DNA of 64,000 nt from Limnoperna fortunei. Its lineage: Eukaryota; Mollusca; Bivalvia; Mytilida; Modiolidae. The stretch is taken from assembly GCA_944474755.1 (NCBI GenBank), contig OX104117.1, positions 38,457,222 through 38,521,221 of the forward strand. Reading direction: 5' to 3'. This document shows, piece after piece, positions 3,072 to 51,500 of the stretch. The notes under the pieces are model-generated. The model saw only the letters and a program-made list of their open reading frames with translations, was not told the origin of the DNA and made no database searches. The stretch's first letter is position 1. Each line of letters starts with the position of its first letter. The position numbers and the translations under genes were made by a program.

Positions 3072-3285
3072 CTTTATTATAGGAATTAAAACGCTATACT
3101 ATATCAAATTTGCTAGTGTATCGAATTACCCTACCGGGTTTTTAAATCCTTGAGGAGGATCTCGGGTTACCTTTAATGGGTTTAAAGCCGATCTCAGATT
3201 ACCCAATAAGGGTTTCAATTACCCTCACACTCACTCAAATTACCTCCTCCTCTGCCAGAACGTGTAGTTCTATACTACTTAAATG

Positions 3286-3406
3286 TTAAAAGGAAGCACA
3301 TGGATCAAAAGAGAAAGTAAAACATGACATAGACAATGACATACCTATAATATTACATAAAAAGCACTACATATTAAAAGGAAGCACATGGATCAAAAGA
3401 GAAAGT
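3286..3406. repeat. 33-bp direct repeat, period 88 bp
   Basis: The phrase GGAAGCACATGGATCAAAAG with its flanks occurs at 3286-3318 and again at 3374-3406. It lies just beyond the 3' side of the retrotransposon. It could be a tandem 3'-UTR repeat or the scar of another insertion. Confidence 0.7.
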
Positions 3407-3440
3407 GAAATTACGAAGATATTTATTTGGCATAAATAGT

Positions 3441-3717
3441 CAGTGGCGGATCCAGAGGGGGGTCCAGGGGGTCCGGACCCCCCCCCTTTCGTTTTGACAA
3501 GCATGGGGTCTGGACCCCTACTTTTGTGTAGCATAACAAAATGACATTTTAACGGACATGTTTTAGGTGTCAGGAAATCGTCAGAATGCAGGATTTTACA
3601 CCATTTCGTCCAGACCCCCTGCCGTAATACGACCTCTGCGAGGTCGGCATGGTGGCCTTCGGCCACCATGACAAATTTGGACCCCCCCCCTTTCATTTGA
3701 GGATGCATCCGCCCCTG
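3441..3717. mobile_element. MITE with CAGKGGCGGAT ends and 5-bp TSD (ATAGT)
   Basis: The left end CAGTGGCGGATCCA pairs with the right end read on the other strand, CAGGGGCGGATGCA. ATAGT is duplicated at 3436-3440 and 3718-3722. The interior is rich in C- and G-runs and has a small hairpin around GGTGGCCTTCGGCCACC. No transposase is present. It is 277 bp long and sits next to the 3' end of the minus-strand retrotransposon. Confidence 0.75.
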
Positions 3718-3848
3718 ATAGTTAAAACAAACACATGGCACTCACACTCTGTCAAGAACTAGCATATAACACAATGATACATAAAAGCAAAGCAAGATAA
3801 AAATAAGCAAATAAAAACAAGCCAGGCACTTATCTAGTACAGCACATG

Positions 3849-6800
3849 CTAAATACAGGCATTACAGTGGCATGTGCTACCATTCCAACTATTCAATAAT
3901 TTTGAAAATTGATTTTTATTATTTTCTGATCTTATGTGGTTTGGTAGCGCATTCCACAGTTTAGCCGATGGAACTTCAGCTGTATTTGCATATCTAAAAG
4001 AGTAATGGTGTTTTTTTTTTAAATTTACTAGGTCATGTAAATACACAGGACTATCTTTGTGAATAATTTTTAAAGTTTCCATGGCAATGGTTCTCATTCT
4101 TCTTATTTTAAGTGATGGTAACTTGGATTTTTCTAATAGCTGTTCATAACTTATAAGATAATCATTGTATATAAATCTTAATGCCCTCTCTTGTATTTTC
4201 TCCATTTTGTGTGTATTTCTTTCACTACAAAAGTGCCATGTCACAGGACAGTAGTTAAAATTTGAAAGTATAAAAGAGTAGTAAATTGTTAGTCTTCCAA
4301 GTTTATTTAAAAAATCTTCCAATTCTTTTTAAAACATTTAGTTGTCTAGCTGCCTTTTTAAAGATCTCAGATATATGTTTATCGAAATTTAACTGATAAT
4401 CTATTGTTATTCCTAATAATTTGACATGTTCCTCACACTTTATCTGATTGCCCTTTAGATTAAAACATATATTTCCTTTCAAAGTTTTCTTACCTATTGC
4501 CAAAGCTTGAAACTTGTCTGGATTCGCCTGCATTAAATTATTTTAAACCAATCAAGCATTTTAAGACTATCAGTTCTAATTTTGAAATAACATTATTTAA
4601 ATCAATGTCAGCATAAGATAATGTGTTATCATCAGCATAATTATAAATTGTACTAAAGTTTACAGAATAAAACATATCATTGATAAAAATATTGAACAAA
4701 ATTGGACCCAGAATTGATCCTTGCGGAACACCTTTATATGATGTTTCAAATGAACTACAAATATTTTTATCTTTAACACATTGTTTCCTGCCAGATAAAC
4801 AACTGTTAAGTAACTTGATAGATTGGTCTGATAGTCCATAGGCTTCTAGTTTCAAAAGAATTAAATTATGAGGGAGACAGTCAAACGCCTTGGACAAGTC
4901 CATTAAAATAGCAGCTATATACTTATTTTCATCTAAAGCTTTTTTCCAATCTTCAATAATCTTTAGAAGGGCAGTTTGACATCCGAAACCTTTCCTAAAA
5001 GCTGAATCTTTAGAAGGGCAGTTTGACATCCGAAACCTTTCCTAAAAGCTAATAATAATGGATGAAAATGAAAGTTAAAAAAATCAGTTAACTGATCAAA
5101 AATGGTTGTTTCAAACAATTTAGAAATGGTTGGCAGCACACTTACAGGACTATAGTTACCTTTTTCTAAAATGTTATCCTTCTTAAAAAGAGGTCTGACA
5201 TGGGTTGTCTTCAACTTGTCTGGAAAAATTGATGCATTTATACATTTATTAATAAAAAAAGCAATTGGTTTTTCAATACAAGGCTGTGATAACTTAAGAA
5301 TTTTGGAAGAAATCCCATCGTATCCTGTGGCTTTCTTTATATTAAGCTTGTTTATATGTTTACACACATAATCCATACTTACAGGTTGAAAATTCAGAGT
5401 TTCAGTCAAACATGTGGATCTATTTTCTTTGATTGTACATATACTGGGGTGATTTTCGTTTATTACAACATCTTCATTTCCAATATTTTTGGCAACATTT
5501 ATAAAAAAAATTATTAAAAACTTCTGCTACTTCTGTGAAGGATTATTAATAATATTTTCATTTTCTCTGTGTGTAATATAATTGTTACTACAACTGTTTT
5601 TCTTAGATAGAAAAGGTTTTATTGTTGGCCAAAAGTCTGTTGACTTTGGCCCCCAAACACATCTTTCAAAAATATAATTCTGAACAGATTTCTTTTTTAC
5701 CTTGTTTACATAGTTTCTTTGTTTTCTATAATTTTCCCAGTTAATTTTAGACCTATTTTTCAAAAATTTATTGTAAAGCATTCTTTTCTTAAATATTTCT
5801 TGTCTTAAAGTTTTGTTCATAAATGGGGCTGGGGGTTGTATTGGTTTTCTCTTTTTCAGTGGTATGTGTTTATTTATAACATAAAGATAAGATTTTTCAA
5901 AACGTTCATACTCATTATTTATATCCACTTAGCTTTTATTTACATTAACATACTCTATTTGTTCAAGATCTTCAGTGAATTTATAATGGTCAAAATTTCT
6001 AAAGCTTCTATCATGTCTATACGTTATATTAAAGTCTCTGTTTATTTTTGAAACCTTTCCTTTGATTTGGGTTGCCACCATATTGTGAACATCGCTGAGT
6101 CCACAATTAAAGTTTGATATATTTTGACATTGGTTTGGTTTGTTCGTTAGGATCACATCTATTAAAGTAGGTTTAAAATTTTTTGTGAAACATGTTTCTT
6201 TTTTTACCAAATTGTTAAGATCAAATATATCACAAACCGATTGTAGTGGTGCTGATTTTTCTTCATCAAGCATATTGTAATTTAAATCACCAAGTACCAG
6301 GATATTTTCGTACTTTAGTGATACTTTATCAAAAGTGTCTGTAAAGTCATCTAAGAATTGATTGTCTTTCATAGATGGCCGATATAGTCCACAAACAAGC
6401 CACTTTTTGTCGTTGAAATTTACCTCTGTAAAGATTGATTCAATTTTTTGACATTCTAGATTTGTTTTTCTACTACAAGCAATGTCAGATCTAATGTAAA
6501 CTAGCATACCTCCTCCGTTGCATGTTCTATCTGCCCTCCACATGTGGTAATTATCGATTTCAAATTGTCCATTTGTAAATTGAGGCGTCAAGTTTTGTCT
6601 CTGCTACGATCAGCATATCAACTATACATGATGTGAGTAGGTCTTTTATTGAACAGAATTTATACCTGAAGCTGTTGATATTTAGGTACGAGCACATAAA
6701 AGTATCTGGATGTGATTTTCTAAGTTTATTTAGTTCGTCAAATATTTCAGTGTTTACACCGGATGTAGTTTCTGGTGATAAGGGGAGGTCATCTACTAAG

Positions 6801-6952
6801 GTTGCGTTCGAGATATTACCTTCTAAAATAACTGATTCCATATCTTCGTTAATGAAACTGAAGAATGAGTCTGTAAACTGTGGTAACGTGGATATTTGGC
6901 AGTGCCAGTCTTCTTCAGAATTAGATAAATAATTATATTCACTTGTTGTCAT
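3849..6952 (-). pseudogene. Non-LTR endonuclease-reverse transcriptase, frameshifted
   Basis: Endonuclease pieces (about 6952-5929) show LNINS, ETKLD, the YRP turn and GDLNYNML. The SDH-type catalytic triplet appears as SDVHNMV, with an extra residue. A stop separates this from a basic linker (5928-5527). RT pieces follow: a start resembling NIKKATGYDGIS (about 5340), AFRKGFGCQTALLK (duplicated), LMDLSKAFDCLPH, GVPQGSILGPILFNIF and the catalytic YADD (about 4628-4639). The thumb and C-terminal part (4533-3849) ends WNGSTCHCNACI, a common end in CR1-like proteins. At least four reading-frame breaks are needed to cover it, so no functional product is expected. Confidence 0.9.
4958..5050. repeat. 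47-bp tandem duplication inside the RT
   Basis: The two copies (4958-5004, 5005-5050) are identical over almost their whole length. Since 47 is not a multiple of three, the duplication breaks the reverse transcriptase at the conserved AFRKGFGCQTALLK block, which is therefore encoded twice in different frames. Confidence 0.95.
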
Positions 6953-7278
6953 GTCAATACATTTTATGTGGTGCCATAGCGTACAGTAATCACATAGAAT
7001 GACCTTTTGATTCGATTTTACAGGTTTTTGACATTTACCGCAAGGATACTTAATGGGCCTGGGTTCACGTGCACATCTCCGCAGAGCAAAATTAATAAAA
7101 TGAGTCTATATATGTTTGGATATTTCATACGTCTTTGTATAAGTACTGAATTTGAGCTTGTTTTTTTTTGTTTTTTGTCTATGTCCCCTCGGGGTCTGGC
7201 GATCAAATTTAAAACATACTCATTTTCCGTAATGTTGTTTGGTATCTTTATGTCATAATTTTCACTTATTATTGTTTT

Positions 7279-7373: not shown

Positions 7374-8712
7374 TAAACACTTGACATCTTGCTTCATATC
7401 TTTGTAAGCCCAAGCCCTAGGTCCATCAAATTTGGTCCAGAGGTAGCTTATGATGAGTACTTGCCAGTCAGTCACCTGTCACCTGACCTTGACCTCAATT
7501 TCACGGTCCAGTGACTACGTTAAAGTTTTTGGGTTACAACAGTTCCTCTGTAACTACGCATGGTAGGATGACAATATTTGGTGTATAGGTTGCTGATGAC
7601 TAGTACATGACTGTCTGGTAGGTGTCACCTGACCTTGACCTCAATTTCACGGTCCAGCGACTACGTTAAAGTTTTTGGGTTACGACAGTTCCTCTGTAAC
7701 TACGCATGGTAGGATGACAATATTTGGTGTATAGGTTGCTGATGACTAGTACATGACTGTCTGGTAGGTGTCACCTGACCTTGACCTCAATTTCACGGTC
7801 CAGCGACTACGTTAAAGTTTTTGGGTTACGACAGTTCCTCTGTAACTACGCATGGTAGGATGACAATATTTGGTGTATAGGTTGCTGATGACTAGTACAT
7901 GACTGTCTGGTAGGTGTCACCTGACCTTGACCTCAATTTCACGGTCCAGCGACTACGTTAAAGTTTTTGGGTTACGACAGTTCCTCGGTAACTACGCATG
8001 GTAGGATGACAATATTTGGTGTATAGGTTGCTGATGACTAGTTCATGACTGTCTGGTAGGTGTCACCTGACCTTGACCTCAATTTCACGGTCCAGCGACT
8101 ACGTTAAAGTTTTTGGGTTACGACAGTTCCTCTGTAACTACCCATGGTAGGATGACAATATTTGGTGTATAGGTTGCTGATGACTAGTACATGACTGTCT
8201 GGTAGGTGTCACCTGACCTTGACCTCAATTTCACGGTCCAGCGACTTCGTTAAAGTTTTTGGGTTACGACAGTTCCTCTGTAACTACGCATGGTAGGATG
8301 ACAATATTAGGTGTATAGGTTGCTGATGACTAGTACATGACTGTCTGGTAGGTGTCACCTGACTTTGACCTCAATTTCACAGTCCAGCGACTACGTTAAA
8401 GTTTTGGGGTTACGACAGTTCCTCTGTAACTACGCATGGTAGGATGACAATATTTGGTGTATAGGTTGCTGATTAATAGTACATAACTGTCTGGTAGGTT
8501 CCACCTGACCTTGACCTCAATTTCACGGTCCAGTGACTACGTTAAAGTTTTTGGGTTACGGCTGTTCCCCTGTAACTATGCAGGGTATGGTGACAATATT
8601 TTGTATACAGGCTGCTGCTGATATTTAATGCTATTTACGTAATGCTTATGACGAAATTTATTTTCGTTACTGATGCGGAATGCAGGCGAGACGTTTTTCT
8701 GTGTCCACACTT
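7279..8712 (+). mobile_element. Helitron-like non-autonomous element, family B, copy 1
   Basis: The 5' end is a hairpin, GTCTCGCCTGCGAC-gaaa-GTCGC-tgg-AGGCGAGAC, followed by ATATG. The 3' end carries the same tag (GCAGGCGAGAC near 8682-8692), then a weak GTGTCCACAC hairpin and CTT beside GTT. Between them are about eight copies of a ~145-bp unit with GACCTTGACCTCAATTTCAC and TAGGATGACAATATTTGG. No protein is encoded. Subterminal inverted repeats, core tandem repeats, a 3' hairpin and insertion at T-rich DNA match Helentron/HINE elements and the bivalve 'pearl' type. It interrupts the retrotransposon ORF. Confidence 0.8.
7329..7375. repeat. (CGG)n microsatellite
   Basis: Some fifteen GGC triplets lie just behind the 5' hairpin of family B copy 1. 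Copies 2 and 3 have only a few (GCCGCCGC), so the tract expanded in this copy. Confidence 0.95.
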
Positions 8713-8960
8713 GTTGAGCTTGCTGGTGATGATTTCCGGTGTTGAAAGTAACATAATCTTGCAATAATCGAGAATATTATGAGCGTTGTTAAAGCTCCCT
8801 TCAGACCGGTCGCCATCTTGAGCTAGCGTACGATTCTGGATATATATGATGTCGGTCAAGTTGCACTTAAGGTAAAAGAGCTGCGCTAATTAAAAAAAAA
8901 ACAAATTTTATATTTAGTAGAAAATCTTAAAGAATTGAAATAGTTTTTTTTGCCCTTTTT

Positions 8961-8976
8961 ATCGGCACGTGCCGAT
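8961..8976. promoter_or_regulatory. Perfect 16-bp palindrome with CACGTG core
   Basis: ATCGGCACGTGCCGAT is self-complementary and centred on an E-box. It lies in AT-rich DNA upstream of the retrotransposon 5' end. A regulatory role is only a possibility. Confidence 0.35.
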
Positions 8977-9019
8977 TTTTATATTGTTAATTACCGGTTC
9001 ACCTGTGTAATATATTTAC

Positions 9020-9419
9020 TCAACCGAGGATCGATAAAACGGTTAACGGAAAGAAAGTGACAGGAAAAAAAGTCACAACTGCACTAACTACATGATAGAA
9101 AGTTCTGAATAATACATGTGTTTTATCATATGTCGATCTCTTCTTATTATCTCTTAATGATATATAATTGTTTTCGGGTACGATTGAGTAGTTAGGTGAA
9201 AACCCATACTCTACAATATAGTTCACGTTGTAAGTAATAAAAAGGCTAATTTAATATTAAAGAAAATATTTCATTTACAGTTTTTCGTATTTGTATAATC
9301 TTTCAAGCTTTAAAATACATTTTGTTGTCCTGATCTAATAAGAAGAAGTAAAGATGTACACAGTTGCATATTAATGCGCGCTATACCAGTGTCTATTTCG
9401 GTAGTATGAATAGATCGGT
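9020..9419. other. AT-rich non-coding stretch
   Basis: No coding region, splice pair or repeat is recognised here. Confidence 0.5.
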
Positions 9420-9850
9420 TCAATTTTTATTTTTGGATTATTTTACTATCTATAGGGTAAGCCTAGTATTTTTATTAATGCATTCTATTCTTGACATAAT
9501 AAAATGAATATACTTGCGTTTCTTTTATTAATTAGTTATTTAATTTGATACAAAAAAGGCATTTTAAAATTGTGTTATGTTATATTACGTAATGTATTTC
9601 ATTGCTTCAATTGTATTTCTTGGATTATTTCATGATTTATATGGTAAGCTTCGTAATTTGTTTATGCATTCTTATTTTAACATGATAAAATGTATTTTTT
9701 CTGTTTCTTTTATTAGTTACTTAGATAATTTGATACTAAAAGTGCACTTTTAGATTTTGTTTAACGCGCTTGTGACCACTCATCCAGAAAGCCTTGATCT
9801 TATTTCTGGATTATTTTACAATTTATTAGTCAATCTTGAACATTAAATTT
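9420..9850. repeat. Divergent tandem repeat of about 205 bp
   Basis: The order TTGGATTATTT...ATGGTAAGC...TTTATGCATTC...ATAAAATG...TTTCTTTTATTA occurs at about 9430-9540 and 9635-9730. A third start (CTGGATTATTTTACAATTTA) is at about 9805. The copies are old and diverged. Confidence 0.6.
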
Positions 9851-25131: not shown

Positions 25132-25369
25132 ATGATTTGCTAAATTTAAAACTTTCCTTGTGTTCGATACAGAAAATAAGGTTATAGATTGATATAAAAC
25201 TTAATTGTGTTTATTAAAATCAGAAAATGGTTTATGGAATAATCGCACGTAAAAATAAACAAAATATTCATACGTTCAGTCAATCCCGCTACCAAATACA
25301 CAAGAAATATGAAGTTGAGAAACACGTTAGATAAATTAATTCCTTAATGCAATTTTAAAGACTTTTAGA

Positions 25370-28889: not shown

Positions 28890-29340
28890 ATTCTATAAGT
28901 ATCCAAATATAAATTGCATTTTAAAAATTGTTTAAAATAAAATGTTTAACTCTTAAAATAAATAAAAATCAATATCTGTGACTTTCTCTTATAATAAAGA
29001 TATTTATTTTCCTTCTGTTTGCTCTTGCATTTTTACCACAGATTTTTACTGATTTAGACGTCTTATTTTGATTAAAAAAACCTGTTTTTAAAATCTAATT
29101 TTCATATAAAAATCATTATTTAAATTTACTTTTTCGTGGCTTATTATGTCGGTCTTTTATTGGTCTTTCATTTTTACCTTTCATCAATGTAAAGTGTCGG
29201 GTAATAATAAGCAATTAACGAATAAACATTAGGCAATTTTAATATACAATTACATCACAGCAATATCTCTTACCCTCCCCACGCCCTGTTCTCGTCGAAT
29301 TTGCGAGAGTTTGAGATTTCGAAATTGTCAATGTAGACCA
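28890..29340 (+). repeat. Repeat related to the left flank of the giant inverted repeat
   Basis: This is the inverted copy of 9850-10265 (see that entry). Confidence 0.65.
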
Positions 29341-42948: not shown

Positions 42949-43103
42949 GAGGTTTTTTGCCTTAGGCATCTTTAAATGCAACCCATAGAAAGAAACCCTT
43001 GCGCATATAAATGGCTTGATATGATTCAGAATTGGCGTTTCTTATTATGTCGCCCCAGACTTTGTCGGGGCGACATATTGTTATTCTACTGTTTCTTTTT
43101 CAC

Positions 43104-43142
<39 letters not shown>

Positions 43143-43277
43143 GTCGCCCCAGACTTTGTCGGGGCGACATATTGTTATTCTACTGTTTCTTTTTCACTAT
43201 TATTATTATTATTATGTCGCCCCAGACTTTGTCGGGGCGACATATTGTTATTCTACTGTTTCTTTTTCACTATTATT

Positions 43278-44783
43278 AAGTCGCCGACCACGAAGTGTCG
43301 GGCGACTTATTGTTTTTACTCCGTTTCTTATTATTATTAAGTCGCCGACCACGAAGTGTCGGGCGACTTATTGTTTTTACTCCGTTTCTTATTATTATTA
43401 TTATTATTATTATTTTCATATTTCTTATGTTTTCCCCTCGCAATGTTGTCCGCTCGTTTTCTCGCTCATCTTTTAACCGATCGAAATGAAACTTTGGGAA
43501 CATGTTAAGGGTGACCTGAAGTTGTGCAATCCACTTTTGAAATTTTCAAAATGGCCGCCATTTTCAAAATGGCCGCCGTTGAAAAAAATGACGGCCGTTG
43601 TCAGATCTCAGTAATTGCCAAAGCAATTTCAATGAAAATTGGTATACTGGTACAGCTAACTATCCCGAGCATTTTTGCAAAAAAAAATTTGACGCGGCCG
43701 ACATTTCAAAATGGCCGCCATCCGAACACCACCCCCCTAAAAATGTAAAAATTTAAACGTCATCCGATTTAGACGAAATTTGGTATACAGGTAGCTTATG
43801 ATACCCTAAGTGTGCCACTATTTAAAAATGTTTTGTCCGACTTCCGGTTTCAAAATGGCTGCCATTTTACTGCAGGAAAAAGTCAACTTTGTCCGATTTC
43901 AACAAAATTTGATTTCTAGGCATATTTTAATGTACTGATTTGAATGAAATACTATCCATGGGATCAACGGGAGGCGACTTCAACGTTTCGGGAAACGTAA
44001 ATTTTAATTATTATTATGTTTTCCTTTTTCCCCTCGCAATGTTGTCCGCTCGTTTTCTCGCTCATCTTTTAACCGATCGAAATGAAACTTTAGGAACATG
44101 TTAAGGGTGACCTGAAGTTGTGCAATCCACTTTTGAAATTTTCAAAATGGCCGCCATTTTCAAAATGGCCGCCGTTGAAAAAAATGACGGCCGTTGTCAG
44201 ATCTCAGTAATTGCCAAAGCAATTTCAATGAAAATTGGTATACTGGTACAGCTAACTATCCCGAGCATTTTTGCAAAAAAAAAATTTGACGCGGCCGACA
44301 TTTCAAAATGGCCGCCATCCGAACACCACCCCCCTAAAAATGTAAAAATTTAAACGTCATCCGATTTAGACGAAATTTGGTATACAGGTAGCTTATGATA
44401 CCCTAAGTGTGCCACTATTTAAAAATGTTTTGTCCGACTTCCGGTTTCAAAATGGCGGCCGTTTTAAAGTTTTACAAAATGGCGGCCGTTGGCAGATCTC
44501 AGTTATGGCCAGAGCAATTTCAATGAAAATTGGTATACTGATACAGCTAACTATCCTGAGCATTTTTGCAAAAAAAATTTTTTGTCCGACTTCCGGTTTC
44601 AAAATGGCGGCCGTTTTAAAGTTTGCTCGTTTTCTCGCTCATCTTTTAACCGATCGAAATGAAACTTGGCCAACTGAAAGCTCATGTTATGAAGTTGTGC
44701 TCTTGACTTTTAGTTCCCTCTACTCGGTCAAAAGTGCGGAACGGGAGGCGACTTCAACGTTTCGGGAAACGTAAATTTTAATT
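43278..44783 (+). mobile_element. Helitron-like family A, copy 1
   Basis: The 5' hairpin AAGTCGCCGACC-acgaag-TGTCGGGCGACTT is followed by ATTGTTTTTACTCC and (TTA)n, which is split by copy 2. The body resumes at about 44010 (TTTTCCCCTCGCAATGTTGT) and ends GGAGGCGACTTCA, hairpin ACGTTTC-gg-GAAACGT, AAATTTTAA. The body carries repeated TTCAAAATGGCCGCCATTTT motifs. Confidence 0.8.
43339..44009 (+). mobile_element. Helitron-like family A, copy 2 (intact, innermost)
   Basis: The only family A copy without an insertion: 5' hairpin, uninterrupted (TTA)n tract, body and 3' end in 671 bp. It lies within the (TTA)n tract of copy 1 and serves as the reference for the family. Confidence 0.85.
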
Positions 44784-46316
44784 AAGTCGCCGACCACGAA
44801 GTGTCGGGCGACTTATTGTTTTTACTCCGTTTCTTCTTATTATTATTATGTCTCCCAAACGAAGTTTTGGGAGACATATTGTTTTTGTCCGGTTTCTTAT
44901 TATTATTCTTCTTCTTTCTTTTTTCTTTCCGTTCAATCTTGTCCGCACATTTTCTCAGAGACGCAATGTCCAATCAAGATGAAACTTTGGGAACATGTTA
45001 AGGGTGACCTGAAGTTGTGCAATCCACTTTTGAAATTTGCAAAATGGCCGCCATTTTCAAAATGGCCGCCGTTGAAAAAAAATGACGGCCGTTGTCAGAT
45101 CTCAGTAATTGCCAAAGCAATTTCAATGAAAATTGGTATACTGATACAGCTAACTATCCTGAGCATTTTTGCAAAAAAAAATTTGACGCGACCGACATTT
45201 CAAAATGGCCGCCATCCGAACACCACCCCCCTAAAAATGCAAAAATTTAAACGTCATCCGATTTAGACAAAATTTGGTATACAGGTAGCTTATGATACCC
45301 TGAGTGTGCCACTATTTAAAAATTTTTTGTCCGACTTCCGGTTTCAAAATGGCGGCCATTTTACTGCAGGAAAAAGTCAACTTGGTCCGATTTCAACAAA
45401 ATTTGATTTCTAGGCATATTTTAATGTACTGATTTGAATGAAATACTATCCATAAGGATTATAGTGGCAATGGGGGTTCGTTTGGGAGACATTCTGTGTT
45501 GGCATCCCAACACAATCAGCACTAGTTATTATTATTTTCATATTTCTTATGTTTTCCTTTTTCCCCTCGCAATGTTGTCCGCTCGTTTTCTCGCTCATCT
45601 TTTAACCGATCGAAATGAAACTTTGGGAACATAATAAGGGTGACCTGAAGTTGTGCAATCCACTTTTGAAATTTTCAAAATGGCCGCCATTTTCAAAATG
45701 GCCGCCGTTGAAAAAAAATGACGGCCGTTGTCAGATCTCAGTAATTGCCAAAGCAATTTCAATGAAAATTGGTATACTGATACAGCTCCCTATCCCGAGC
45801 ATTTTTGCAAAAAAAAATTTGACGCGGCCGACATTTCAAAATGGCCGCCATCCGAACACCACCCCCCTAAAACTGTAAAAATTTAAACGTCATCCGATTT
45901 AAACGAAATTTGGTATACAGGTAGCTTATGATACCCTGAGTGTGCCACTATTTTCAAAATTTTTGTCCGACTTCCGGTTTCAAAATGGCGGCCGTTTTAA
46001 AGTTTTACAAAATGGCGGCCGTTGTCAGATCTCAGTTATGGCCAGAGCAATTTCAATGAAAATTGGTATACTGATACAGCTAACTATCCTGAGCATTTTT
46101 GCAAAAAAAAATTTTTGTCCGACTTCCGGTTTCAAAATGGCGGCCGTTTTAAAGTTTGCTCGTTTTCTCGCTCATCTTTTAACCGATCGAAATGAAACTT
46201 GGCCAACTGAAAGCTCATGTTATGAAGTTGTGCTCTTGACTTTTAGTTCCCTCTACTCGGTCAAAAGTGCGGAACGGGAGGCGACTTCAACGTTTCGGGA
46301 AACGTAAATTTTAATT
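44784..46316 (+). mobile_element. Helitron-like family A, copy 3
   Basis: Begins directly after copy 1 with no spacer (head to tail). Its (TTA)n tract is split by the family T element. The body resumes at 45528 and the 3' end lies at 46316. Confidence 0.8.
44848..45525 (+). mobile_element. Helitron-like family T
   Basis: The 5' hairpin ATGTCTCCCAAAC-gaag-TTTTGGGAGACAT is followed by ATTGTTTTTGTCCGG and (ATT)n. The middle shares the GGGAACATGTTAAGGGTGAC region with family A. The 3' end has the tag GTTTGGGAGACAT, hairpin GTGTTGG-cat-CCCAACAC and CACTAG. It lies in the (TTA)n tract of family A copy 3. Confidence 0.8.
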
Positions 46317-49300
46317 ATTATTATTATTATTATTATTCTTCCTCACTTTTTGTCCGGCTGATAACTCAGAGATGGCTGATTGGATTAGAACATCACATGG
46401 CATAAAGTAGAACCACTATCTGAAGTTGTGCCATCAACTTTAAAAATGGTGATATGTGGAACCATCTCCATGGAAACCAGAAAGTTATGCATGAGTGATT
46501 TTGGGCATTTTCATTAATTTTTCGGAAACCTAGAAGCACAGAGGGACCAAACTTGGTATGATGGAAGACCATAATGAGATACAGGTTTGAGATGATTTTG
46601 GGGCGGAATGGAAAAACAAGATGGCCGCCATGGCTAAAAATAGATTTAACATGGGGCCTATGGGAAAATGATTTTTCTACAATAGCTTCACCATGGTTTG
46701 AGATATTCCAAAGTTTTTTTATAGGAAGTTGGACCTCATCAACCTCAAGAAGACAGGAAAGTTTGAAAAAAAAATTTCACACCGTGTGGCCGCAGCCACA
46801 ACCGTAACGTTTGCATAGAAGCCTATGGGGAAATGGAGGTTTTTTGTCACCTCCATTTCTCTGCTATGCATTGATGGATTCCAATCAAACTTTACACAAA
46901 GCACCGTCATCATTACATCTTGGAATTCACATATCAAAAATTTCTAAAATGGCCACCTTTTACAAGATGGCCGCCATGTTACATTTGCATAGAAGCCTAT
47001 GGGGAAATGGAGGTTTTTTGTCGCCTCCATTTCTCTGCTATGCATTGATGGATTCCAATCAAACTTTACACAAAGCACCGTCACCATTACATCTTGGAAT
47101 TCATATTACGAAAAATTTCAAATGGCGGCCATTTTTAAGATGGCTGCCGAGTTACGTTAAAAATTACAACATTGTCGGAATTCCATGAAAATCAACTTCT
47201 AGAGATATTTTGATGTGGGGAGCAACATGGAATCATCGATTTTGGAATTCACATGACGGAAAAAAAAAATTTCGGGGCGACATCTGCTATTGCTCGCAAT
47301 GGCAATTCTAGTTATTATTATTATTCTTCCTCACTTTTTGTCCGGCTGATAACTCAGAGATGGCTGATTGGATTAGAACATCACATGGCATAAAGTAGAA
47401 CCACTATCTGAAGTTGTGCAATCAACTTTAAAAATGGTGATATGTGGAACCATCTCCATGGAAACCAGAAAGTTATGCATGAGTGATTTTGGGCATTTTC
47501 CTTAATTTTTCGGAAACCTAGAAGCACAGAGGGACCAAACTTGGTATGATGGAAGACCATAATGAGATACAGGTTTGAGATGATTTTAGGGCGGAACGGA
47601 AAAACAAGATGGCCGCCATGACTAAAAATAGATTTAACATGGGGCCTATGGGAAAATGATTTTTCTACAATAGCTTCACCATGGTTTGAGATATTCCAAA
47701 GTTTTTTTATAGGAAGTTGGACCTCATCAACCTCAAGAAGACAGGAAAGTTTGAAAAAAAAATTTCACACCGTGTGGCCGCAGCCACAACCGTTACGTTT
47801 GCATAGAAGCCTATGGGGAAATGGAGGTTTTTTGTCACCTCCATTTCTCTGCTATGCATTGATGGATTCCAATCAAACTTTACACAAAGCACCGTCACCA
47901 TTACATCTTGGAATTCACATATCAAAAAATTCCAAAATGGCCACCTTTTCCAAGATGGCCGCCACGTTACATATGCATAGAAGCCTATGGGGAAATGGAG
48001 GTTTTTTGTCGCCTCCATTTCTCTGCTATGCATTGATGGATTCCAATCAAACTTTACACAAAGCACCGTCACCATTACATCTTGGAATTCATATTACGAA
48101 AAATTTCAAAATGGTGGCCATTTTTAAGATGGCTGCCGAGTTACGTTAAAAAATACAACATTGTCGGAATTCAATGAAAATCAACTTCTAGAGATAATTT
48201 GATGTGGGGAACAACATGGAATCATCGATTTTGGAATTCACATGACGGAAAAAAAAAAATTTCGGGGCGACATCTGCTATTGCTCGCAATGGCAATTCTA
48301 GTTATTATTATTATTCTTCCTCACTTTTTGTCCGGCTGATAACTCAGAGATGGCTGATTGGATTAGAACATCACATGGCATAAAGTAGAACCACTATCTG
48401 AAGTTGTGCAATCAACTTTAAAAATGGTGATATGTGGAACCATCTCCATGGAAACCAGAAAGTTATGCATGAGTGATTTTGGGCATTTTCCTTAATTTTT
48501 CGGAAACCTAGAAGCACAGAGGGACCAAACTTGGTATGATGGAAGACCATAATGAGATACAGGTTTGAGATGATTTTGGGGCGGAACGGAAAAACAAGAT
48601 GGCCGCCATGGCTAAAAATAGATTTAACATGGGGCCTATGGGAAAATGATTTTTCTACAATAGCTTCACCATGGTTTGAGATATTCCAAAGTTTTTTTTA
48701 TAGGAAGTTGGACCTCATCAACCTTAAGAAGACAGGAAAGTTTGAAAAAAAAATTTCACACCGTGTGGCCGCAGCCACAACCGTTACGTTTGCATAGAAG
48801 CCTATGGGGAAATGGAGGTTTTTTGTCACCTCCATTTCTCTGCTATGCATTGATGGATTCCAATCAAACTTTACACAAAGCACCATCATCATTACATCTT
48901 GGAATTCACATATCAAAAAATTCCAAAATGGCCACCTTTTCCAAGATGGCCGCCACGTTACATTTGCATAGAAGCCTATGGGGAAATGGAGGTTTTTTGT
49001 CGCCTCCATTTCTCTGCTATGCATTGATGGATTCCAATCAAACTTTACACAAAGCACCGTCACCATTACATCTTGGAATTCATATTACGAAAAATTTCAA
49101 AATGGTGGCCATTTTTAAGATGGCTACCGAGTTACGTTAAAAAATACAACATTGTCGGAATTCAATGAAAATCAACTTCTAGAGATAATTTGATGTGGGG
49201 AACAACATGGAATCATCGATTTTGGAATTCACATGACGAAAAATTGCATCAAAAGTCCAACATTGTCTGATTTTAAAGAAAACTATTTTCCTGTGGTATT

Positions 49301-49364
49301 TTGACATGAAATCATAAAAAAATGTCAGGGCGACATCTGCTATTGCTCGCAATGGCAATTCTAG

Positions 49365-50772: not shown

Positions 50773-51345
50773 CATAGACAAAACGATATACCAAATCAAA
50801 TTATGGTGAGCAAACCAATTTTCTTTTTGCAAATACACGTATAGTACTACTTAAAATAAGCAAGAATTTTTCATTTAAACGTTTCTACAATATCGATTAT
50901 TAGTTCTTGAAAAAAAATCTATAGAAAGAAAATTGTCATTTCAGATGCAGGTACGATTATGTCATACATATTTTATTTATTTTCTCTGCTTTTATTTAGG
51001 TGTAGTTGAATAACAATCAAATCTTTTATGTTTGGTCTGAAACGTGGTCCTATTTCTCGACATTATTTTTCTGAACTACTTAGAGGCTTTGCTCTTCATG
51101 ATTGTGTTCCAGTATTTCTTCACAGATGACCTCAGTACCCAAGGTCATATTAAAAAGTATAGAGTAAAAAGATTTGATTTCCTTTACGTACCCTGGTTCC
51201 TGTGTGTCTTAGTATTTCTGTGGTCGTTATTTTGTGTGTCTGTTAAAGTTTTGTTAAAGGGTTTGAAGTGCAGCATACACAGCAATACCATGAAAATAAT
51301 TTATGTTAACTATAAATACTTCTCTGAAACATATTTAAATGAATA

Positions 51346-51500
51346 TCGGCCGAAATCGGCCCTTTGGCAGCGTAAGGTAACGTCAATCGGCCAAATCGGC
51401 CCTCTGGCAGTGAAAGGTAACGTCAATCGGCCAAATCGGCCCACTGGCAGTGAAAGGTGACGTAAATCGGCCCAAATCGGCCAATTGGCAGTATAAGGGT
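51346..51500. repeat. Tandem repeat of about 52 bp, CGGCC-rich
   Basis: Four units of the form AATCGGCC-n-AAATCGGCCC, then TGGCAGTGAAAGGTAACGTC. The unit contains paired GGCC sites and a CGTCA motif. It is a GC-rich island in very AT-rich DNA. Confidence 0.85.

Follow-up and report, generated by a model that had tools for sequence, protein, structure and literature searches.

The anatomy of HINEs has been described for Drosophila, mite and oyster. The passages of these reports on HINE/DINE-1 (PMC4067079) and on Cg_HINE of the Pacific oyster (PMC7492417) give a 5' hairpin-forming inverted repeat, a microsatellite near the 5' end, a 3' subterminal repeat, a 3' palindrome, a TT-type target that is not duplicated and the lack of encoded proteins. 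The same features were found in short elements of the bivalve Limnoperna fortunei, in a stretch of 64,000 nucleotides (GenBank assembly GCA_944474755.1, contig OX104117.1, positions 38,457,222 to 38,521,221; hereafter, the window). Here, seven elements of three families, designated G, A and T, form one array in which their ends follow one another like balanced brackets. Unlike in HINE/DINE-1 and Cg_HINE as described in those passages, the microsatellite, (ATT)n, is the insertion target, and self-nesting is regular over several levels.

Composite FoHeli Helitrons of Fusarium share with these elements hairpin ends, asymmetric inverted repeats, self-insertion and several 5' ends; the passages of PMC5148889 give one nested example, whereas we found seven elements in one array and 65 nested placements in our sample, aimed at the internal ATT tract. 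For maize Helitrons with multiple termini, nesting has likewise been proposed as the source of the extra termini; in the passages of PMC3288121, however, most internal 3' ends prove to be pseudo-termini (99 in a sample of 100), and microsatellite targeting does not appear there. The SaTar Mu-like elements of guayule and rice also form microsatellite-targeted arrays of mixed families, but the passages of PMC5907723 state that these are never nested; the arrays of L. fortunei are nested because the tract lies inside the element. Self-insertion and multi-headed Helitrons (Fusarium, maize) and microsatellite-targeted arrays (plants) are already known; regular, same-strand and phase-locked self-nesting with up to eight stacked 5' ends is new here. 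In the open literature, judged by titles and the start of abstracts, we recognised no description of self-nesting via an internal microsatellite; most subscription papers lie outside this scope.

The evidence below leaves little doubt that these small non-coding HINE-type elements self-nest, inserting at A^TT in one orientation, without target duplication, with their own tract as the target.

Results

Seven elements of three families in one array

Both strands of the window were scanned for 5' ends (heads) and 3' ends (tails), with up to 30% mismatch allowed. The scan returned seven heads and seven tails (Table 1; A tails include their last TT), and every one of the 14 end coordinates of the original prediction, which was made from the sequence alone, lay within 1 base of a rescanned end. 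Even at ≤30% mismatch the window gave no additional G, A or T end, other than second readings of these sites as palindromes or as another family, and the seven heads were the complete set for all eight head types searched. Along the plus strand the ends read G( G( G( A( A( )A )A A( T( )T )A )G )G )G, which reproduced the predicted string; among the 140 possible orders of tail types, this is the only one that is fully matched. The description of seven nested elements was correct in its bracket order, but A1 and A3 are touching siblings (44783|44784), neither inside the other, and the maximum depth is therefore 5. The outermost element, G1, does not lie in a long tract; its host site is a short TTATTATT.

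When the inner copies were removed, G1, G2 and G3 became continuous elements of 1157, 1063 and 1058 bp with a single ATT tract each, and their identity was 98.2-99.1% over aligned columns, gaps set aside. A1 and A3 rejoined to 835 and 856 bp (98.1% identical); A1 was without about a dozen bases behind the tract, a shortfall also present in some un-nested A copies. Excision, which had been suggested as a check, thus yielded complete parents in the window, and parents mostly of single-copy length in the larger sample.

Bracket matching at further loci

The window is part of a 1.335-Gb genome, in which a search for head clusters found at least 65 places (the best 40 of 535 candidates were scored). 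A degenerate G head pattern occurred 645 times (312 forward, 333 reverse), and the reversed-pattern control gave 0 occurrences. The sample consisted of the window and 20 loci of 10 kb around plus-strand head-cluster places; two loci from minus-strand places were added later. These loci were picked for their head clusters and so inform on how arrays are built, not on genome-wide frequency. Eight head types were distinguished. No tail specific to U heads was identified, so these heads were paired with the tails of T; D and E heads had no tail in the list.

The 20 loci and the window gave 223 head and 149 tail matches. Three minus-strand head matches were near-palindromic readings of plus-strand E heads, and none of the 220 heads was truly inverted. 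The innermost open head of its own family was closed by 114 of the 149 tails; 7 closed after skipping a head, 13 had no open head of their type and 15 were cut off by the locus start. When tail types were shuffled within loci, direct closures averaged 66 (standard deviation 5.3) and reached a maximum of 85 in 2000 shuffles. Other bracket-matched arrays, which the original prediction had suggested looking for, are present in the genome. Among the 220 plus-strand heads, 121 were matched, 89 were open at the right locus end and 10 were unmatched inside matched pairs.

Rejoined nested G copies measured 1054-1157 bp in 22 of 23 cases, and single copies 1049-1145 bp in 19 of 22; 15 of 19 rejoined nested and 21 of 28 single A copies fell within 833-860 bp. 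In the two later loci, 13 tails closed the innermost head of their own family, 4 were cut off by the locus start and there were 0 mismatches. These loci also held an A of the short, 668-bp form and a B element of 2058 bp, which probably contains something unrecognised because it is double the usual length.

The greatest number of stacked heads came from a 30-kb stretch (L029-L032) that begins with eight G heads in succession in L029. Further G tails lie within the 20 kb downstream of L029, at positions 25231, 26237, 27225, 28320 and 29299 of the stretch, as a nest requires. If only G brackets are counted, the tail at 29299 closes head number three of the eight, which lies at 1651, over a span of 27.6 kb; the outermost two have not closed where the stretch ends.

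Two further configurations were observed. An A head was combined with a T tail about 690 bp away in L022 (8988-9681) and L023 (5276-5965), perhaps from recombination between ATT tracts. In L009, a similar run of a T tail, A elements and multiple A heads occurred twice (3248-5381 and 7689-9767), which suggests local duplication or composite movement.

Position, phase and strand of the target site

In the sample, inner copies were nested in the ATT target of their parents, in phase and in one orientation, and the tract was not doubled. The inner copy started 52-124 bp behind the 5' end of its parent in 62 of 65 placements; the other three (133, 190 and 190 bp) were all in L022, where an intermediate pair, closed only by skipping a head, is absent from the count. 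Upstream of the 220 heads we found two or more repeats in 146 cases, the end of another element in 38, one TTA/ATT unit in 33 and another sequence in 3, so that nearly all copies adjoin ATT sequence in the loci examined, as had been proposed. Head-to-head spacing was in the commonest ATT phase of the family pair for 133 of 137 neighbours. Once rejoined, 108 of 114 insertion sites had the sequence A^TT, and 51 of these matched ATTA^TTATT exactly; in the window outside the array, 3.9% of positions read A^TT. A^TT and T^T readings are indistinguishable because T stands at both ends. The rejoined A tract had a median of 20 nt versus 19.5 nt in un-nested copies; rejoined tracts were not longer than un-nested ones, and the target is therefore not duplicated.

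Among the first 100 of the 645 G heads, neighbours were on one strand in 42 of 42 cases within 5 kb, 57 of 57 within 20 kb and 61 of 63 within 50 kb, and 40 of the 100 had another G head ≤200 bp away. New siblings occupied the first possible site beside a tail in 27 of 40 cases, where about 14 would be expected if placement were uniform.

These placements can also be read in a different way, to which we give nearly an even chance: the elements may merely favour AT-rich A^TT sites, and the internal ATT tract may be a passive sink rather than a target selected for self-insertion. The short host site of G1 fits such a preference, as do the microsatellites carried by oyster HINEs, and the word 'nested' is absent from PMC7492417. 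On the other hand, related elements host six of the seven window copies and the 65 sample placements, and almost all of these occupy the tract with the same phase and strand, a pattern that is still compatible with a sink.

A constant junction between tails and bodies

Exactly 14 nt, (TTA)4TT, separated a G tail from the G body that followed in 25 of 27 cases, the others being 8 and 26 nt. The tracts of un-nested G copies ranged from 14 to 86 nt, and 11 to 44 nt separated B, C and T tails from G bodies. Counted with the exact tail motif, A tails were 14 nt ahead of A bodies in 12 of 21 cases.

Such a constant junction would fit a history in which whole nested composites, or multi-headed pieces that begin at an outer head and extend as far as the first tail, had moved as units and many arrays were copies of a few old nests; composite movement has been modelled for Fusarium (PMC5148889, section 16). 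The 10 heads unmatched inside pairs point in the same direction, as do runs of A heads at 55-58 bp ahead of one tail and the A-head/T-tail combinations. G bodies behind a G tail also differed less among themselves (1.95%) than from bodies that directly follow their own head (3.13%), although the latter group includes diverged outliers and differs by 4.42% within itself. However, the bodies with the 14-nt junction were dispersed across the G-body tree and no alignment column separated them, the length of the upstream tract in G parents ranged between 1 and 37 nt, and inner copies of several families occupied the same position. We consider composite movement unlikely as an account of the arrays, and a single copied composite as the source of the junction was not supported by the G-body tree. 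Rolling-circle concatemers are an unlikely origin of the neighbouring G tails and heads, as 18 of 23 such tails are separated by a TTA from the TG-type head that follows.

Divergence of linked copies

If the array had arisen by tandem duplication, through slippage or through unequal exchange from one ATT tract to another, the heads would be a 61-94-bp repeat and the bodies a repeat of about 990 bp. The heads within the window stacks are identical in sequence and are labelled as tandem repeats by TRF, L009 has its similar run of ends twice, and linked G copies were slightly closer than unlinked ones (1.49% vs 1.79%, 43 elements); linked A copies, by contrast, were no closer (2.07% vs 2.04%, 38 elements), and the outer copy was the nearest relative of the inner copy in only 2 of 20 G pairs and 1 of 8 A pairs. 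Linkage thus made copies hardly more alike, family-wise matching of heads and tails is far above that of shuffles, and duplicating a parent cannot place other families inside it; duplication is therefore very improbable and was rejected as the main process.

Element class and candidate autonomous partner

The 5' subterminal inverted repeat is predicted to fold as a hairpin (head z of -6.8 for G, -3.5 for A and -6.5 for T). A 3' subterminal copy of the inverted repeat, read in the sequence, shares 15 bp in T, 8-9 bp in G and 8 bp in A. Hairpins are predicted for the tails of all three families, clearly beyond shuffles only for T (z -2.5) and weakly for G (-0.6) and A (-1.0). The (ATT)n tract lies about 55 bp from the 5' end in un-nested G and A copies and in T1, and the A^TT reading of 108 of 114 sites agrees with the TT-type target without duplication of HINEs. 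The array contains four open frames of ≥150 amino acids, none with a Pfam match, and thus no protein-coding capacity. Judged by this structure, the G, A and T elements are classed as putative HINEs, that is, non-autonomous elements of the Helentron/Helitron2 type.

Two other classes were rejected. Canonical Helitron1 elements are defined by 5' TC and 3' CTRR in the passages of PMC5148889; the elements here start with TG or TTAA, and although G and T end in CTAG, the CTTG end of B and the TTAA end of A do not fit. SaTar elements are Mu-like, with terminal inverted repeats and non-nested arrays, whereas here the 3' repeat is subterminal and the arrays are nested.

At least 147 matches to Helitron_like_N were found in the genome (the best 150 of 180 candidates were scored), many of them in open frames of >2500 amino acids. 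A Helentron-type open frame with OTU, Helitron_like_N and PIF1 domains was present in L039 (3198-9998, contig C10); passages of PMC4067079 report an OTU domain for Helentrons. The visible part of this frame ends 5 kb from the end of the deep-array stretch examined on C10. L039 also contains a HINE-like element (973-2072) with a 5' hairpin, a (GTCC)n tract, a 3' palindrome and a CTAG|TTTT end; its tetranucleotide microsatellite is of the kind found in oyster. Exact and degenerate head patterns gave 0 matches in the viral_contigs and genome_contigs collections.

Features of the window

The pieces of the array are listed in Table 1. Elsewhere in the window, a broken non-LTR retrotransposon with reverse transcriptase, endonuclease and PHD-finger pieces lies on the minus strand at 3849-7105, and a tandem repeat with a 40-bp unit (3.7 copies) at 51345-51492.

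Table 1. Elements and element pieces of the nested array, in window coordinates
Feature	Position	Strand	Basis
Whole nested array, seven elements, maximum depth 5	43048..49364	+	end scans, bracket matching
G1 left piece, outermost element: 5' hairpin and (ATT)n tract	43048..43141	+	head scan, excision, folding
G1 right piece: ATT tract resumes, body, longer tail variant, CTAG end	48302..49364	+	sequence, excision, tail scan
G2 left piece, in ATT tract of G1	43142..43214	+	head scan, excision
G2 right piece, ATT tract resumes	47312..48301	+	sequence, excision, tail scan
G3 left piece, in ATT tract of G2	43215..43277	+	head scan, excision
G3 right piece, (ATT)7 at resumption	46317..47311	+	sequence, excision, tail scan
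A1 left piece, in ATT tract of G3; TT at 43276-43277 may be the element's own	43278..43338	+	head scan, excision, site reading
A1 right piece	44010..44783	+	scans, excision
A2, unbroken, shorter (671-bp) body variant, in ATT tract of A1	43339..44009	+	head scan, excision
A3 left piece, directly abutting A1 end	44784..44848	+	head scan, excision
A3 right piece, ATT tract resumes	45526..46316	+	sequence, excision, tail scan
T1, unbroken, in ATT tract of A3; shares most of A2 body, own ends	44849..45525	+	scans, excision

Discussion

In the mechanism that we propose for self-nesting, an element has the HINE layout of a 5' hairpin, an (ATT)n tract about 55 bp in, a body, a 3' copy of the inverted repeat, a 3' hairpin and, in G and T, a CTAG end. 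In the sample, insertion falls between A and TT, always with the same orientation to the strand that reads ATT, and leaves the target unduplicated. The Rep/helicase of a Helentron, supplied in trans, may move the elements, and transposition would probably proceed by a rolling circle. Each copy brings an ATT tract just behind its 5' end and thereby becomes a target, so that elements of several families stack inside one another.

We suggest tentatively, as a possibility that falls somewhat short of probable, that the element thereby carries its own landing pad. Self-homing would then be strand-specific and nearly site-specific, with G inserting into G at 14 nt from the body. One insertion would seed an array that grows inwards and keeps its layered history, forming satellite-like blocks while other DNA was spared.

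Several observations weigh against self-nesting as we describe it. Besides the 10 unmatched heads among 220, the 89 heads open at locus ends may hide more, and 13 of 149 tails had no open head of their type. The L029-L032 stretch is only partly resolved, as three B tails have no listed head and several A heads stay open. Together with the 7 closures that required a skip, the unmatched heads and headless tails mean that simple nesting is not the sole process. The rejoined G tract was shorter than the un-nested one (median 31 vs 37 nt), and free insertion at any point of a tract does not account for the constant 14 nt that remain between G tails and G bodies. No autonomous element with G, A or T ends was found; the Helitron_like_N loci and L039 lack such ends, but stop short of the ends of autonomous copies. 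Finally, age order was not significantly supported by private changes, which were more numerous in the outer copy in 14 pairs and in the inner copy in 9, with 5 ties (G, 10 vs 7 with 3 ties; A, 4 vs 2 with 2 ties); in the window, G1 had 0, G2 1 and G3 1. The predicted order of G1, G2, G3 and then A and T is given by the topology but not by this test, and the topology is accordingly our sole basis for the order of insertion.

To our knowledge, the target choice of Helitron-type elements is poorly understood. Each array described here represents many insertions for which parent, position, phase and strand are all known; a single genome is thus enough to read the rules of targeting, and the order of insertion can be taken from the topology of the array. 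Further, the arrays of L. fortunei suggest a route by which microsatellite-bearing elements may seed large repeat blocks.

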